Below, in pieces: positions 47,749-53,686 of a stretch of 64,000 nt of DNA. Every line of letters begins with the position of its first letter. Position 1 is the first letter of the stretch. This DNA comes from Anaerolineales bacterium (GTDB taxonomy: Bacteria > Chloroflexota > Anaerolineae > Anaerolineales > UBA11579): assembly GCA_025808555.1 (NCBI GenBank), contig CP075526.1, positions 946,712-1,010,711 on the forward strand, read 5' to 3'. A model generated the notes under the pieces. The model searched no databases. It saw only the letters and a list, made by a program, of their open reading frames with translations, and was not told the origin of the DNA. The position numbers and the translations under genes are program-made.

Positions 47749-47821
47749 ATTATAAGTCCAACCGTATTAGACGATAACTATCTGTATAGCAATGGTATAA
47801 TATTTTAGTTCTAGGATATTA
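47749..47821. promoter_or_regulatory. divergent promoters of the glycan operon and padR
   Basis: Minus-strand TATAAT at 47749-47754, 7 nt from the GT2 ATG (leaderless), and plus-strand TATAAT at 47796-47801 before padR. The stretch 47800-47821 is an imperfect palindrome (AATATTTTAG / CTAGGATATT, 8 of 10 matching), a candidate PadR operator between the padR -10 box and start. Confidence 0.5.
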
Positions 47822-48378
47822 TGACAAACGCAGAGCTCGCCATCCTCGGCCTGATCGCCGAAGCCCCTCGCCACGGCTACGAGATCGAGCAAGTGCTCGA
47901 GCAGCGCAACATGCGCCGCTGGGCCGATATTGGCTTCTCCTCCATTTACTACCTGCTCAGCAAGCTCGAGAAAAAAGGCTGGATCCGCAGTGAAATGCAG
48001 CCCGCCGTGGGCAAAGGCCCGGCCCGCCGGGTCTACCGCATCCTGCCCAGCGGGCAGGATGCCTGGTACCAGGCCACCCTGGCCGCCCTCGGCGGCCCCG
48101 GCCAAGCCAATACCGCCTTCCTCGTGGGCCTGGCGGGCTTACCCGGCATCCGCCCGCAGGATGCGGTGGCCGCCTTGCGCCAGTACCGCCGCCACGTGCT
48201 CGAACGCATTCAGGAGGTGGAGCAGGCCTGGCAGGGGGCCGAGAACCTGCCCGCCTTTCTGCAGGGCATGTTCGAGTACAGTGCCAACACCCTCCAAACC
48301 GAGCTCGATTGGCTCGACCGTTACATTCCGCGCTTTGAAAGCCAGGTCACCGAGCAGGACGACGAAGAAGATATGTAA
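47821..48378 (+). CDS. PadR-family transcriptional regulator
   Basis: 185 residues. N-terminal winged helix ('ELAILGLIAEAPRHGYEIE', 'IYYLLSKLEKKGWI', 'ARRVYRI') and a C-terminal helical part (Vir-type) for dimer contact. Probably represses itself and the downstream GyrI-like gene in response to a toxic ligand. Could also touch the divergent glycan operon. Confidence 0.9.
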   Translation: MTNAELAILGLIAEAPRHGYEIEQVLEQRNMRRWADIGFSSIYYLLSKLEKKGWIRSEMQPAVGKGPARRVYRILPSGQDAWYQATLAALGGPGQANTAFLVGLAGLPGIRPQDAVAALRQYRRHVLERIQEVEQAWQGAENLPAFLQGMFEYSANTLQTELDWLDRYIPRFESQVTEQDDEEDM

Positions 48379-48416
48379 CTTTTTTGCAGCAAACCACTAT
48401 TGTGTGCAGGGATACC

Positions 48417-49046
48417 ATGGAAAAACTGGACCTCAAAAAAGAATACAAGCACCTCTACAACCCAAGCGCCAAACAGGTCTCGCTGGTCACTGTGCCGCGT
48501 TTCAACTTCATCATGATCGACGGCGTCATCCCACCCAACGTCAAAGTGGATGATGCGCCGGATTATCAGAACGCGGTCGAAGCGCTCTACAGCCTCTCGT
48601 ACACCATCAAATTCATGTGCAAGAAGCGCAAGACGGATCCCATCGACTACGCCGTGATGCCGCTCGAAGGACTATGGTGGAGCAAGAGCAGCCACGAGGA
48701 ATTCACCCCCAACCGAAAAGACACTTGGTACTTCACCGCCATGATCATGCAGCCCAGCCCGGTCACCAAAGCCATCTTCGCCGAAGGTGTGGAGGCCGTG
48801 CGCGCCAAGAAGAACCCGGCTATGCTGGACGCGGCCCGCTTCGAAGCCTTTGCCGAGGGCAAAGCCGTGCAGGTCATGCACCTCGGGCCATATGCTGACG
48901 AGCCGGCCACTATTGCGCGCATGGTGGCCTTCAGCGACGAGCAGGGCTTCAAGCCCAACGGCAAACATCATGAGATCTACCTGGGCGACCCGCGCCGCAC
49001 CGCCCCCAGCAAGCTCAAGACCGTGCTGCGGCATCCGGTGAAGTAA
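48417..49046 (+). CDS. GyrI-like small-molecule-binding protein
   Basis: 209 residues: 'VPRFNFIMIDGVIPPN' and 'AVEALYSLSYTIKFMCKK' match the GyrI-like (SHOCT/COG4832) group, ending with 'KHHEIYLGDPRRTAPSKL'. Members bind or hydrolyse small hydrophobic compounds. PadR plus GyrI-like is a recurrent sensor-effector arrangement. The ATG at 48417 fits a weak AGGGA site. A TGTAACTTTTTT motif overlaps the padR stop. Confidence 0.85.
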   Translation: MEKLDLKKEYKHLYNPSAKQVSLVTVPRFNFIMIDGVIPPNVKVDDAPDYQNAVEALYSLSYTIKFMCKKRKTDPIDYAVMPLEGLWWSKSSHEEFTPNRKDTWYFTAMIMQPSPVTKAIFAEGVEAVRAKKNPAMLDAARFEAFAEGKAVQVMHLGPYADEPATIARMVAFSDEQGFKPNGKHHEIYLGDPRRTAPSKLKTVLRHPVK

Positions 49047-49050
49047 CTCG

Positions 49051-50073
49051 TTACACTTTCAATTCACCAAAGCGCTTAAGCACATACAACGCGTCGGCCG
49101 TGACCCACTCGTTCATCTTTTTTGTGCTGGTGCCGCCCCAACCGACATAGTCGGTGCCCAGGCCTATCTGGTTGGATACTTTGGTGTAGTACTTGCTTTC
49201 CGCCGGCCAGCCGCCCGCCAGCAGCTCTTTGCTCTTCAGCAGCATTAGCGCGTCTTGCAGGCGCGCGTCTTTAGTGACGCCAATCTCAGCGAACACTTTC
49301 AGCGCGCCCAGAATGTCGTAGTGCCAGTACAGCGGATAGTGCAGCTTGGTGAACTCCTCGCGGATCACCGCACCGTCGCGGGCGCGCTTGTACAGCCTGC
49401 GCGTCAGGAACACTTCTGTGGCGCGGGCCACAGCCTGTTTGGCTTTTTTGTCGCCGGTGCGCTGGGCATACAGGTGCAACCCGCGCATAGCCCACAGGGT
49501 ATGAATGAAGGTCGAAGTATCGGCATCAGGGTCTTTGTCGCAGTTCCAGCCGCCATCCGGCCATTGCCAGTACAAGAGACGCTCGGCCAGTTGGTGAATG
49601 CGTTCATCCTCCAACCCTAACGCCAGCACGACGTACAAAGCGTTGCCCTGCTGCGAGGCGCAAGTGCGATGGCGGCCCTGCATCAGAGGGATGGCCGTTC
49701 TTTGTTTCTTGATTGCATCCTGCTTGCTGTCTGCGGTGAACTCACGAAAGAAACGCTCAGCCAACCAAGTGCTCATCACTTCGTCTGCGGTGGGTTGCAG
49801 CCACTTCGCGCCACGCGGATAGCCGATATCCGCAAGGGTCATCAGCACCCACTGCGCGCCCTGCCACTTGGCGTAGACGTTGGCTTGCAAGCGCCCTTGG
49901 TCATCCACCCGACCCAACAGGGCGGCCACCCGCGGCGAGCCGGCGATCTCCTTCTCCAGCTTGCGAATGGCGGGGCTGTTTCTATCTTCGCCCAGCACAT
50001 TGACGCGCACCTTCCAGCGGATCGACGCTTCGGCAGAGTTTTGCAATTGGTCAATGAGTTTGGCGCGCTCCAT
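49051..50073 (-). CDS. alpha/alpha-toroid (prenyltransferase-like) protein, copy 2
   Basis: 340 residues, paralogue of 34206-35147: same order of motifs ('WQWPDGGWNCDKDPDADTST', 'FLTRRLYKRARDGAVI', 'HYPLYWHYDILGALKV', 'LQDALMLLKSKEL'). Catalytic Asp motifs of cyclases are missing. It lies 26 nt downstream of the Trm9-like methyltransferase and is probably in its transcript. Function unknown. Confidence 0.75.
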   Translation of the reverse strand: MERAKLIDQLQNSAEASIRWKVRVNVLGEDRNSPAIRKLEKEIAGSPRVAALLGRVDDQGRLQANVYAKWQGAQWVLMTLADIGYPRGAKWLQPTADEVMSTWLAERFFREFTADSKQDAIKKQRTAIPLMQGRHRTCASQQGNALYVVLALGLEDERIHQLAERLLYWQWPDGGWNCDKDPDADTSTFIHTLWAMRGLHLYAQRTGDKKAKQAVARATEVFLTRRLYKRARDGAVIREEFTKLHYPLYWHYDILGALKVFAEIGVTKDARLQDALMLLKSKELLAGGWPAESKYYTKVSNQIGLGTDYVGWGGTSTKKMNEWVTADALYVLKRFGELKV

Positions 50074-50099
50074 GTTGTCCACCGTATGTTGCAAGCTTA

Positions 50100-50846
50100 C
50101 TATTGTTCGCCGTGCGTGGCTTTGCCCCACACCGAATACAGGCTCAGATCCCCTGTGCTACCGTCAGAATAAAACAGATCGCTTACCGTAAAGCTCGCCT
50201 CCGCCGCCAACCCCGCCAACTCCTCCTCGCTGAACTGGTGCACATAGCGCAGCGCATGCCCTTCGCGCACGCCGCTGCGCCAGTCCAGCAAATGATCGCC
50301 CGCGTCCACCTGGCTCTCGTCCAATCCAGCCGCCGCCCACGACTGCACGCGGGCCGCCAGCTTGGGGCTGCGCATGAACTGCCAGTTGGAATGTACGAAG
50401 CGCCCGCCCTCTCTCACCAGAGCACGCACCTGGCGCAGGAACGTCAGCTGCAGCTCGCGCCCCGGGATGTGATGCATCACCGCCATGGCAAGCACGACAT
50501 CAAATTTGCCGTCCAACGCCGCGGCCCATTCCCCGCTCAGGTCAGCCTGCACAAACTCGGCAGGGTAGCCCGGATACGCCGCCACCCGCTCCCGGGCGGC
50601 CGCCAGCAAGCCCTCGCTAAAATCCACACCCACATAGCCGCCTTCGTGTCCGCTGGCCGCCAGCTGCGCCGCCACGCCGCCGTTGCCGCAGCCCAGGTCA
50701 AGTATGCGCGCCGAGGGGAGCAGGTCGTTGAGTATTCGCTGGGTGCCCGGTTGCAACCGCCCGCGGGTAGCCGAAAACGCTTCAGCGTGCGTTTGATAGA
50801 ATTCTTTGTTCAGGGCAACCAATTGCTGCGCTACCGCGGCATCCAT
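50100..50846 (-). CDS. class I methyltransferase, Trm9/ABH8-like
   Basis: 248 residues. Starts 'LNKEFYQTHAEAFSATRGRL', a pattern close to the 'FSxTR' opening of the tRNA wobble-uridine methyltransferase Trm9, then SAM motif 'ILDLGCGNGGVAAQLA', 'YVGVDFSEGLL' and 'VVLAMAVMHHIPG'. It lies head to head with elp3 with 9 nt between the start codons. I infer methyl-ester formation on cm5U34; an unrelated small-molecule role is possible. CATAAT lies 6 nt before the ATG. Confidence 0.75.
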   Translation of the reverse strand: MDAAVAQQLVALNKEFYQTHAEAFSATRGRLQPGTQRILNDLLPSARILDLGCGNGGVAAQLAASGHEGGYVGVDFSEGLLAAARERVAAYPGYPAEFVQADLSGEWAAALDGKFDVVLAMAVMHHIPGRELQLTFLRQVRALVREGGRFVHSNWQFMRSPKLAARVQSWAAAGLDESQVDAGDHLLDWRSGVREGHALRYVHQFSEEELAGLAAEASFTVSDLFYSDGSTGDLSLYSVWGKATHGEQ

Positions 50847-50855
50847 GCCCCTATT

Positions 50856-52475
50856 ATGGCCTTACTTACGCCCCAGGAACCCCGCATCCACGCGTGGGAG
50901 GAGTCCAAACTCCCCACCCATGAGCGTATGCAACGCGCCCGCCTGATCTTGGAGGAAGTGCGCGCCGGCGCCAACCCACACGAGGCGCTGCGCCGCTACC
51001 CGCTGGATGGCGAGGGCGGCGGCTACATCGGCAAACAGTTCCTCGTCGCCGCCTACCGTCAGCTGGTCGCCGCGGGCGAGATGGCCGAAGACCCGGCCCT
51101 GTTGCACCGCATCCGCCTCAAACCCATGCGCTCGCTCTCCGGCGTCAGCGTGGTCACCGTGCTCACCAAGCCCTACCCCTGCCCGGGCAAGTGCGTCTTC
51201 TGCCCCACCGATGTGCGCATGCCCAAGAGCTACCTGCCAGACGAGCCCGGCGCCATGCGCGCCCTACAACACCAGTTCGACCCGTACGCGCAGGTGCGCT
51301 CGCGCCTGGACGCGCTGGAGGCTGTCGGTCACCCCACCGACAAGATCGAGTTCCTGATCCTGGGCGGCACTTGGAGCTCGTATACGCGTGCGTATCAGGA
51401 GGAGTTTGTCCTGCGCATGTTCGAGGCGCTGAACGACCAGCCCTTTGCCACGATCGAAGAGGCTCACGCCTACAACGAGACCGCCGCCCACCGCAATGTG
51501 GGCCTGGCCATCGAAACCCGGCCCGACCATGTGAACGCGGACGAGATCGCCTGGTTGCGCCGCCTGGGCGTCACCAAGGTGCAGCTCGGTGCGCAAAGTT
51601 TTGACGACGGCGTGCTGGAGTTGAACAAGCGCGGCCACACCGCCGCCGAGACCCAGCGCGCCGTAGACCAGCTGCGCGCCGCCGGTTTCAAGATCGTGCT
51701 GCATCTGATGCCCAATCTACTGGGCGCCACCCCGCAGACCGACCGTGAGGATTTTGTCAAACTATGGGCCGGTCACAACCCGGACGAATTGAAGATCTAT
51801 CCCACCCAGCTGCTCGAGAACGCTGAGCTGTACCTGCACTGGCAGCGCGGCGAATACCAGCCCTATACCACCGAAGAACTGGTGGAGTTGCTCGCTGAGC
51901 TCAAAGCGAATATCCCAGCATACTGCCGGGTCAACCGCGTCATCCGAGACATCCCTTCCACCAACGTGGTCGAGGGCAACAAGCGCACCAGCCTGCGCAT
52001 GGATGTGCACCAGCGCATGCACGAACGCGGCCAGCGCTGCCGCTGCATCCGCTGCCGCGAGGTGCGCGGCCGCGCCGTCAACCCCGTCGAGCTGGAATTG
52101 CAGGATCTGCCCTACAGCACGCCGCACGCCCACGAGCACTTCCTGTCCTACGTCACGCCGGAGGATAAGCTGGCCGGCTTCCTGCGTCTGTCGCTGCCCG
52201 CCGCGGCTGCACCGCATACTGGCTTGGATGAGTTAGCCGGGGCGGCCTTGGTACGCGAGGTGCATGTCTACGGCCAATCGCTCGAGGTTGGCGCCGAGCA
52301 GACCGGCGCGGCCCAGCACATTGGCCTGGGCACCCAGCTGCTCGCCCATGCCGAAGGCATAGCACGCCAGGCGGGTTACCCGCGCATGGCCATCATCGCC
52401 GCGGTGGGCACGCGCCGCTATTACGCCGGCCGCGGCTACCGCCTGCAAGGCACCTACATGGTGAAGGAGTTGTAG
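50856..52475 (+). CDS. elp3: tRNA uridine(34) acetyltransferase/radical-SAM Elp3
   Basis: 539 residues. Radical-SAM core with Cys109-x3-Cys113-x2-Cys116, 'DKIEFLILGGTWSS', 'GLAIETRPDHVNADE', 'LKIYPTQLLENAELY' and 'RVNRVIRDIPS', and a C-terminal GNAT domain ('LVREVHVYGQ', 'HIGLGTQLLAHAEGIARQAG', 'YYAGRGYRLQGTYMVKEL'). Adds carboxymethyl to U34 of tRNA. The frame is open much further upstream, but the family begins at 50856. No other Elongator subunit is present, as in other bacteria. Confidence 0.95.
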   Translation: MALLTPQEPRIHAWEESKLPTHERMQRARLILEEVRAGANPHEALRRYPLDGEGGGYIGKQFLVAAYRQLVAAGEMAEDPALLHRIRLKPMRSLSGVSVVTVLTKPYPCPGKCVFCPTDVRMPKSYLPDEPGAMRALQHQFDPYAQVRSRLDALEAVGHPTDKIEFLILGGTWSSYTRAYQEEFVLRMFEALNDQPFATIEEAHAYNETAAHRNVGLAIETRPDHVNADEIAWLRRLGVTKVQLGAQSFDDGVLELNKRGHTAAETQRAVDQLRAAGFKIVLHLMPNLLGATPQTDREDFVKLWAGHNPDELKIYPTQLLENAELYLHWQRGEYQPYTTEELVELLAELKANIPAYCRVNRVIRDIPSTNVVEGNKRTSLRMDVHQRMHERGQRCRCIRCREVRGRAVNPVELELQDLPYSTPHAHEHFLSYVTPEDKLAGFLRLSLPAAAAPHTGLDELAGAALVREVHVYGQSLEVGAEQTGAAQHIGLGTQLLAHAEGIARQAGYPRMAIIAAVGTRRYYAGRGYRLQGTYMVKEL

Positions 52476-52559
52476 CCATGCCTCTTCACGCTCTCCCCAC
52501 GCCGCTCTATTTCTTTCAGCTTTTCTTTCTACTGTCCTCAGCCGCCTTTCTTGGTTTCT

Positions 52560-53006
52560 ATGTCCTTTCCTAACCTGCTCGTCTCGGCCCGCGGCGTCCC
52601 CCTGCTCGGCATCCTGGCCTACTACGCCCTCAAGCTGCTGGGGGTCGAGATCCCGCGCTCGGTGCGCATCGGCCCAGGGTTTGATTTGGTTCACGGCGGG
52701 GTCGGCGTGGTCATTCATCCGCGCAGCATGATCGGCGCCAATGTCAAGATCTACCCGGGCGTCACCCTGGGCCGCGCCGATGTGCACCTGCCCGCTACGC
52801 AGTCCAAGTTCGAAGGCATCGAGATCGGTGACGAAGCGATCCTCGCCCCCGGCAGCAAAGTGCTGTGCAAAGAGGGCGTACTGAAAGTGGGCCGCGGCAC
52901 GGTGCTGGGCGCCAACGCGGTGCTACTCCAATCCACGGGCGAAGGCGAAACCTGGGCCGGCCTGCCTGCCAAAAGAGTGGGCACGCGTGATGGCTGGGGT
53001 ATCTAG
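52560..53006 (+). CDS. hexapeptide-repeat acetyltransferase, serine O-acetyltransferase-like
   Basis: 148 residues. Left-handed beta-helix rungs ('IGPGFDLVHGGVGVVIHP', 'IGANVKIYPGVTLGRAD', 'IGDEAILAPGSKVL', 'VGRGTVLGANAVLLQ') with the His residues of CysE-type active sites. The N-terminal helical domain of CysE is missing, so it resembles short serine acetyltransferases of glycan clusters. Follows elp3 by 84 nt. Confidence 0.8.
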   Translation: MSFPNLLVSARGVPLLGILAYYALKLLGVEIPRSVRIGPGFDLVHGGVGVVIHPRSMIGANVKIYPGVTLGRADVHLPATQSKFEGIEIGDEAILAPGSKVLCKEGVLKVGRGTVLGANAVLLQSTGEGETWAGLPAKRVGTRDGWGI

Positions 53007-53186: not shown

Positions 53187-53259
53187 GCCGAGGTAGCTCA
53201 GTTGGTAGAGCACGCGACTGAAAATCGCGGTGTCGCCGGTTCGATCCCGGCCCTCGGCA
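53187..53259 (+). tRNA. tRNA-Phe (anticodon GAA)
   Basis: 73-nt cloverleaf: acceptor GCCGAGG/CCTCGGC, D arm GCTC/GAGC, anticodon stem CGCGA/TCGCG with loop CTGAAAA, T arm GCCGG/CCGGC. The genome continues ACC T, so CCA is not fully encoded. Confidence 0.97.
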
Positions 53260-53264
53260 CCTAC

Positions 53265-53284
53265 GCAAGGGCTAACGCCCTTGC
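53265..53284 (+). repeat. simple hairpin after tRNA-Phe
   Basis: GCAAGGGC / GCCCTTGC, 8 bp, loop TAAC. No T-run. Paired with the bulged palindrome that begins 5 nt later. Confidence 0.75.
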
Positions 53285-53288
53285 TAAA

Positions 53289-53325
53289 GGAGAAGCTACT
53301 CGCCTCTAGCGAGTAACGCTTCTCC
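53289..53325 (-). repeat. bulged palindrome between tRNA-Phe and tRNA-Gly, copy 4
   Basis: Outer arms GGAGAAGC / GCTTCTCC, inner arms TACTCGC / GCGAGTA, loop CTCTA, and an unpaired AC at 53316-53317 (GT on the minus strand). Same plan as the copies around tRNA-Arg, opposite strand to copies 1 and 2. Confidence 0.85.
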
Positions 53326-53361
53326 ACCCAGCGACAGTAACCGGTTTTGGGTCGGCTTATA

Positions 53362-53399
53362 GGAGAAAGTGCTCGGCTAACGCCGAGCGACGTTTCTCC
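53362..53399 (-). repeat. bulged palindrome between tRNA-Phe and tRNA-Gly, copy 5
   Basis: Outer arms GGAGAAA / TTTCTCC, inner arms GCTCGGC / GCCGAGC, loop TAAC, GAC bulge at 53389-53391 (GTC on the minus strand). Confidence 0.82.
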
Positions 53400-53414
53400 A
53401 AACGAATAGCACGG

Positions 53415-53444
53415 TTCACAGCCACACATGAATCGGGCTATAAT
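53415..53444 (+). promoter_or_regulatory. promoter of tRNA-Gly
   Basis: TTCACA (53415-53420), 18-bp spacer, TATAAT (53439-53444); start expected within 3 nt of the tRNA 5' end. Confidence 0.75.
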
Positions 53445-53453
53445 AGATGTATT

Positions 53454-53526
53454 GCGGGCGTGGCTCAGTTGGTAGAGCATCTCCTTGCCAAGGAGAAGGT
53501 CACGAGTTCGAGTCTCGTCGCCCGCT
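53454..53526 (+). tRNA. tRNA-Gly (anticodon GCC)
   Basis: 73-nt cloverleaf: acceptor GCGGGCG/CGCCCGC, anticodon stem TCTCC/GGAGA with loop TTGCCAA, T arm ACGAG/CTCGT. CCA not encoded. A terminator follows within 4 nt. Confidence 0.97.
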
Positions 53527-53529
53527 CAG

Positions 53530-53562
53530 AAAGAAAAACAGGCCGCTGGCCTGTTTTTCTTT
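53530..53562 (+). terminator. terminator of tRNA-Gly
   Basis: AAAGAAAAACAGGCC / GGCCTGTTTTTCTTT around GCT. Confidence 0.95.
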
Positions 53563-53592
53563 ACGGCAATCTTGTCTGCGCGCAGGCGTAGG

Positions 53593-53598
53593 TATAAT
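53593..53598 (+). promoter_or_regulatory. -10 box of tRNA-Cys
   Basis: TATAAT 9 nt before the tRNA; TTGTCT at 53572-53577 may be the -35 though the spacer (15 bp) is short. Confidence 0.65.
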
Positions 53599-53607
53599 GC
53601 CCCTTCC

Positions 53608-53678
53608 GGCGACGTGGCCAAGTGGCAAGGCAAGGGTCTGCAAAACCCTGACCACGGGTTCGAATCCCGTCGTCGCCT
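53608..53678 (+). tRNA. tRNA-Cys (anticodon GCA)
   Basis: 71-nt cloverleaf: acceptor GGCGACG/CGTCGCC, short D stem GCC/GGC, anticodon stem AGGGT/ACCCT with loop CTGCAAA, T arm ACGGG/CCCGT with TTCGAAT. CCA not encoded. Confidence 0.95.
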
Positions 53679-53686
53679 CACAGCCA

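Follow-up and report, generated by a model that had tools for sequence, protein, structure and literature searches.

The first-pass annotation of the window, that is, of the whole stretch of 64,000 nucleotides analysed here, had drawn attention to an elp3 gene lying beside a methyltransferase gene and had read the two as a possible bacterial pathway to mcm5U34. This raises the question of whether the methyltransferase is a relative of Trm9 that acts with Elp3 on the wobble uridine, or whether it has some other role and has merely come to lie beside elp3. The features of the locus on which the answer depends are as follows.

50856-52475, + strand: elp3, 539 aa, a predicted stand-alone radical-SAM/GNAT tRNA U34 carboxymethyl enzyme.
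50100-50846, - strand: gene for a Trm9-like class I SAM methyltransferase (MTase), 248 aa, the proposed cm5U34 carboxyl methyltransferase.
50847-50855, 9 nt: gap between the divergent ATG start codons, from the sequence, holding for the elp3 start chosen.
50763-50765, - strand: Arg28 codon of the MTase, by alignment the equivalent of ScTrm9 Arg29 (tRNA/cm5U34 binding).
50247-50249, - strand: Arg200 codon of the MTase, the equivalent of ScTrm9 Arg241 by alignment with 5cm2 and from the invariant residues of profile A2, with Tyr201 next and Val202 in place of ScTrm9 Tyr243.
49051-50130, or from an ATG at about 50073, - strand: ORF after the MTase gene, the 'toroid' of the first-pass annotation, with no pathway role on present evidence.

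The head-to-head arrangement, with 9 nt between the two ATGs, is in the window sequence as it had been described. The 9 nt are counted from the first ATG of elp3; another in-frame ATG is present 72 nt downstream, near the start of homology to the relatives, and would give a spacing of ~80 nt. The ORF listed as 50103-52475 is merely an open extension of elp3 and not a separate gene.

The Elp3 of the window is complete, as had been claimed, with both the radical-SAM and the GNAT domains: its match to NCBIfam TIGR01211 reaches 478.9 bits (cut-off 350) over residues 77-539. When it is aligned with Dehalococcoides mccartyi Elp3 (DmcElp3), to which it is 42.7% identical, Cys109, Cys113, and Cys116 correspond to the radical-SAM cluster cysteines C23, C27, and C30, and Lys163, Lys279, Glu468, and Tyr522 correspond to K77, K193, E386, and Y441, which are named as residues of the acetyl-CoA pocket (PMC6367351). 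DmcElp3 is a tRNA enzyme and is presented as a rare example of Elp3 in bacteria (PMC6367351). The Elp3 of one Chloroflexota genome surveyed here (G020) is identical to the crystallised DmcElp3 (PDB 5l7j) over all 458 compared residues, which identifies the phylum shared by G020 and the window genome as Chloroflexota; the window genome is of a different class from Dehalococcoides, probably Anaerolineae. The nucleoside cm5U has been made in vitro by an archaeal Elp3, that of M. infernus (PMC13315578).

The MTase is over cut-off on the general Pfam models Methyltransf_25, Methyltransf_12, and Methyltransf_11, which identify a class I SAM methyltransferase domain, and no NCBIfam equivalog is over cut-off. 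There are 31 Methyltransf_11 matches in the window genome, so that the neighbour of elp3, taken by itself, could have been any methyltransferase. It is the family profiles that are informative on its kinship. Four were used to search 177,635 distinct PDB sequences: A1 for the Dehalococcoides type, A2 for the window type, A3 for these two combined, and A5 for the CPR type. The best match of all four is Trm9 of Yarrowia lipolytica (5cm2, 5cm2_Z), with E-values of 2.7e-21 (A1), 1.3e-13 (A2), 6.7e-30 (A3), and 1.6e-26 (A5), the lead of Trm9 over the next entry being narrow with A2 by itself (54.0 vs 50.5 bits). A single-sequence PDB search with the window MTase places generic and small-molecule enzymes first and Trm9 at a rank of about 51, with a weak E-value of 6e-4.

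In the reverse search, with Trm9 as the query, the MTase is the best match in all 12 of the Dehalococcoides-type genomes and in 10 of 15 genomes of the window's class, including the window genome (G000), where it is found at 9.3e-5 and the next best at 4.6e-3. The MTase is not the top match in G064, G072 (no match), G096, G216, and G232. The resemblance to Trm9 reported from the sequence alone is therefore upheld by the profile search that had been proposed as a check, and a best match to unrelated small-molecule methyltransferases, which had been named as a refutation, is not seen in the profile searches.

Five residues of ScTrm9 are important for its binding of tRNA and for its turnover: R29, H115, R241, Y243, and N271 (PMC5372719). 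In an alignment with 5cm2, the equivalents of R29, H115, and R241 are all kept in the window MTase, while the other two of the five are replaced, Val202 standing for Y243 and Ser235 for N271. Across the four subfamilies of the elp3-linked family, also aligned with 5cm2, the Arg29 equivalent is present in 57/58 members (20/20, 10/10, 20/20, and 7/8), that of His115 in 54/58, and that of Arg241 in 56/58; in the PW...RY motif, the Trp of PW and the Tyr next to R241 are near-invariant as well. Most Dehalococcoides-type (19/20) and CPR (6/10) members keep the Tyr243 equivalent, and that of Asn271 is invariant in both alignments. Given the replacement of these two residues in the window's branch, the MTase is called Trm9-like here rather than Trm9; it is likely to be the functional counterpart of Trm9 rather than a proven Trm9.

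A tree of Trm9, the elp3-linked family, and other methyltransferases has the topology (Trm9,(CPR,window type)) with support of 94/76, apart from the other methyltransferases of the window genome and with long branches, which would lend moderate support to the grouping with Trm9. Placement of Trm9 outside the elp3-linked family has p=0.265 in the AU test, so that, with these long branches, positions inside and beside the family are not separated. The AlphaFold model of the window MTase (pLDDT 94.2) was also compared with known structures. Foldseek places Trm9 5cm2 at rank 19 (TMt 0.81), and VIA-align has METTL6 first, with many other methyltransferases ahead and 5cm2 not among the best 50 listed; CmoM (8joz) is also matched, with Z 19.8. 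Fold comparison was dropped as a test of Trm9 membership on account of the Foldseek rank and the METTL6 lead, the fold being too common to decide it.

The distribution of the two genes was surveyed in 301 Chloroflexota genomes, among them the window genome, which is one 2.24-Mb contig. Elp3 is over the TIGR01211 cut-off in 52 of these. The window's order contributes all 25 of its genomes and the rest of the class 4; the remaining 23 are of the Dehalococcoides type. Orthologs of the MTase at E < 1e-35 are found in all 25 genomes of the order and in 3 others of the class. With profile A3, the MTase family is present in 51 of the 52 genomes that have Elp3 and in none of the 249 that do not, with a clear separation between these 51 genomes (7e-68 or better) and the next methyltransferase (7e-27). 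The Fisher value for this co-occurrence, 2.8e-57, is too optimistic because the species are related and not independent; the pattern is seen in two Chloroflexota classes. Two genomes of family f22 (G085 and G213; L037, L038) that have MnmG and lack Elp3 carry a distant methyltransferase within a longer ORF, at about 1e-27 on A3, which is not linked to elp3.

In the window's class, the genes are divergent neighbours at 23 of 27 sampled loci, in addition to the window itself; both are present and not adjoining in G176, G144, G240, and G096. All 23 Dehalococcoides-type genomes have the divergent pair, with a gap that is usually tens of bp, the MTase there being shorter and more distant in sequence than the window type and in the same divergent place. 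The one genome with Elp3 and without a member of the MTase family (G192; L087) is complete and belongs to the window's class; its Elp3 is closer by TIGR01211 score to the Dehalococcoides/archaeal type, and there is no MnmG over cut-off in it.

A scan across phyla with an Elp3 alignment as query, taking one genome per species, gave 80 loci from archaea, CPR bacteria, and Chloroflexota. Upstream sequence of 900 bp or more is available at 36 bacterial elp3 loci, and 33 of these have a divergent member of the MTase family: 23 of 24 in Chloroflexota, all 3 in Peregrinibacteria, and those in Staskawiczbacteria, one Minisyncoccota, a MAG of Ca. Subteraquimicrobium (Actinomycetota), three bacteria without classification, and one bin labelled 'Deltaproteobacteria'. 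The last of these (L148, also labelled Myxococcota) has a Dehalococcoides-type elp3/MTase pair, with an MTase at 1.7e-109 on A1, and is not counted as an independent phylum; since its MTase scores like those of Dehalococcoides, the bin is probably wrong (mis-binned Dehalococcoidia) or the genes have recently moved. The MTase is beside elp3 at 6 of 30 archaeal loci, all of DPANN type, and in the same scan no MTase was found near elp3 in the Methanocaldococcus relatives and Woesearchaeota. Thus the co-occurrence survey that had been suggested at the outset, and the search for conserved pairing in relatives, have both come out in favour of a link between the genes, within the phylum and beyond it.

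Neither gene that flanks the pair shares this conservation. The ORF at 49051-50130 exists as annotated, and its identity as a toroid protein is not borne out, there being no Pfam or NCBIfam match; it has no homolog at any related elp3 locus and was rejected as a member of the pathway on that ground. A short hexapeptide-repeat transferase gene (window 52551-53006) follows elp3 on the same strand and was rejected likewise, having no homolog at related elp3 loci. Conservation is therefore restricted to the pair. Shortly downstream of elp3 there is a cluster of tRNA-Phe, tRNA-Gly, and tRNA-Cys (window 53187-53679), and a PadR-type regulator gene followed by one for a GyrI-like small-molecule-binding protein occupies 47821-49046, apparently unrelated to the pair.

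Elp3 and MnmG are mutually exclusive in the Chloroflexota set: of the 301 genomes, 116 have MnmG over cut-off, and not one of these is among the 52 with Elp3 (Fisher 4.6e-13). Neither MnmE nor CmoB is over cut-off in any of the 20 Elp3-containing genomes tested for each. MnmA, for 2-thiolation, is present in the window genome, in which the tRNA anticodons include UUU, UCU, UCC, UAC, UGC, UGU, UGA, UGG, and UCG. The absence of MnmG, MnmE, and CmoB, with MnmA and tRNAs with U34 present, makes Elp3 the candidate source of the C5 side chain on U34. Among those of its 48 tRNAs that were read is also a tRNA-Arg with anticodon GCG (L211:1501-1574), which is unusual in bacteria, where ACG (inosine) is normal.

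Eukaryotic Trm9 requires Trm112. The window genome has a short YcaR-like Trm112p ORF elsewhere than at the pair, and Trm112p was undetected in the pair-bearing genomes G007, G020, G055, G120, G224, G269, and G297, Dehalococcoides included. Trm112 was set aside as a required partner on its scattered presence across these genomes and its weak scores; that it is undetected in several that have the pair would suggest that the bacterial MTase may not need it.

The two genes would make up a pared-down bacterial counterpart of the Elp3-Trm9 route. Acting by itself, with no other Elongator subunit, Elp3 would use SAM and acetyl-CoA to attach a carboxymethyl group at C5 of U34 (cm5U34) in tRNAs with a wobble uridine; to our knowledge, no Elongator scaffold is to be expected in bacteria. 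The divergent MTase would then transfer a methyl group from SAM to the cm5U34 carboxylate, forming the methyl ester mcm5U34, or mcm5s2U34 in those tRNAs also thiolated by MnmA, and the route would substitute for MnmE-MnmG, which are absent there. The first-pass reading of the locus is largely supported by the Trm9 profile matches, the conserved pairing, and the absence of MnmG and MnmE, and we think it probable that Elp3 makes cm5U34 and that its partner esterifies this to mcm5(s2)U34 in place of MnmEG. The gene pair, its co-occurrence, the exclusion of MnmEG, and the kinship with Trm9 are shown by these data; the substrate, the sequence of the two steps, and mcm5(s2)U34 as the ester formed are inferred, and are probable to much the same degree. 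The balance tips only slightly towards a broader statement: that Chloroflexota and Patescibacteria make mcm5(s2)U34 by a two-gene Elp3/Trm9-like unit replacing MnmEG, that eukaryotic Trm9 shares ancestry with the prokaryotic elp3-linked family, and that the pair has been exchanged between bacterial and archaeal lineages.

Other roles for the MTase have to be weighed against this. The methyl ester might be an intermediate only, which a further enzyme would convert, for example to the amide ncm5U or to another cm5U derivative. A report of ncm5U in an archaeon, Thermoplasma acidophilum (cited in PMC5372719), is in keeping with this, as is the fact that the enzyme making ncm5U is unknown (PMC6367351), and genomic linkage places the MTase in the Elp3 pathway and says no more. 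However, no further conserved gene is found beside the pair, the two flanking genes being without homologs at related loci. In yeast, the methyl ester is the end product in several tRNAs, which also counts against an intermediate, and we consider a role of this kind unlikely. Somewhat less likely again is that the target of the MTase lies elsewhere in tRNA, in rRNA, or in a translation factor, shared regulation being all that ties its gene to elp3. Trm11, Mtq2, and Bud23, which are also Trm112-partner methyltransferases, do act on other parts of translation (PMC5372719), and the enzyme that comes first in the fold comparison, METTL6, makes m3C in tRNA; against this, the sequence profiles rank Trm9 above every other PDB sequence, the cm5U-docking residues R29, H115, and R241 are near-invariant, and the co-occurrence with Elp3 is strict.

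It would be most improbable that the MTase is CmoM-like and esterifies cmo5U34. CmoM also forms a methyl ester at U34 and is among the structural matches, but the best 60 PDB sequence matches listed do not include it, and with no CmoB over cut-off in 20 Elp3-containing genomes cmo5U should not be made. The commonness of the methyltransferase domain in this genome, and the small-molecule enzymes that top the single-sequence searches, would be expected of an unrelated small-molecule methyltransferase lying beside elp3 by chance; yet the pairing is kept across classes, phyla, and domains, and the co-occurrence in Chloroflexota refutes such a chance neighbour in practice.

The first-pass annotation knew of no described bacterial Trm9 partner, and the literature search, with most subscription papers outside it, likewise turned up no account of Elp3 paired with Trm9 in a bacterium. 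According to a 2017 review, relatives of Trm9 and of the other methyltransferases that depend on Trm112 could not be detected in bacteria, where U34 bears groups of the MnmEG type (PMC5372719). The kind of pathway is therefore known, while the two-gene bacterial version that replaces MnmEG appears to be new. If the Elp3/Trm9-like reading is correct, a set of bacteria that includes Dehalococcoides, from which the model bacterial Elp3 comes, decodes with a eukaryote-like mcm5(s2)U34, a nucleoside regarded as eukaryotic, by a wobble pathway so far assigned to eukaryotes and, as a prediction, to archaea. It would answer what becomes of cm5U after bacterial Elp3, and would provide a minimal Trm9 system, possibly without Trm112, that bears on the origin of Trm9.

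Among the closest known systems is eukaryotic Elongator with Trm9-Trm112 or ALKBH8-TRMT112, shared features being an Elp3 homolog with the key residues, an MTase whose profiles match Trm9 best of all PDB sequences, and the retention of Arg29, His115, and Arg241. Unlike the eukaryotic pathway, the bacterial genes are adjacent and divergent, no Trm112 is detected in several genomes, and the Tyr243 and Asn271 equivalents of eukaryotic Trm9 are replaced in the window's branch. An Elp3/Trm9 route has been predicted for some archaea, with the genes clustered in Sulfolobus solfataricus (PMC2584109). That predicted pair (Sulfolobus solfataricus, Haloferax volcanii; PMC2584109, PMC5372719) is alike in the clustering of elp3 with a Trm9-like gene, in S. 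solfataricus, and in the predicted mcm5s2U-like U34; here, in contrast, the pair occurs in several bacterial phyla, is divergent, and is mutually exclusive with MnmG, and the window-type sequences are remote from those of DPANN. The MnmE-MnmG-MnmC pathway to (c)mnm5U34 acts at the same position, and likely on the same tRNAs, with other enzymes and another side chain. CmoM, the cmo5U34 carboxyl methyltransferase of E. coli, is similar in forming a methyl ester of a wobble-uridine carboxylate and in its class of fold (8joz), but it acts on the product of CmoB, which is absent here, and the sequence match is not close.
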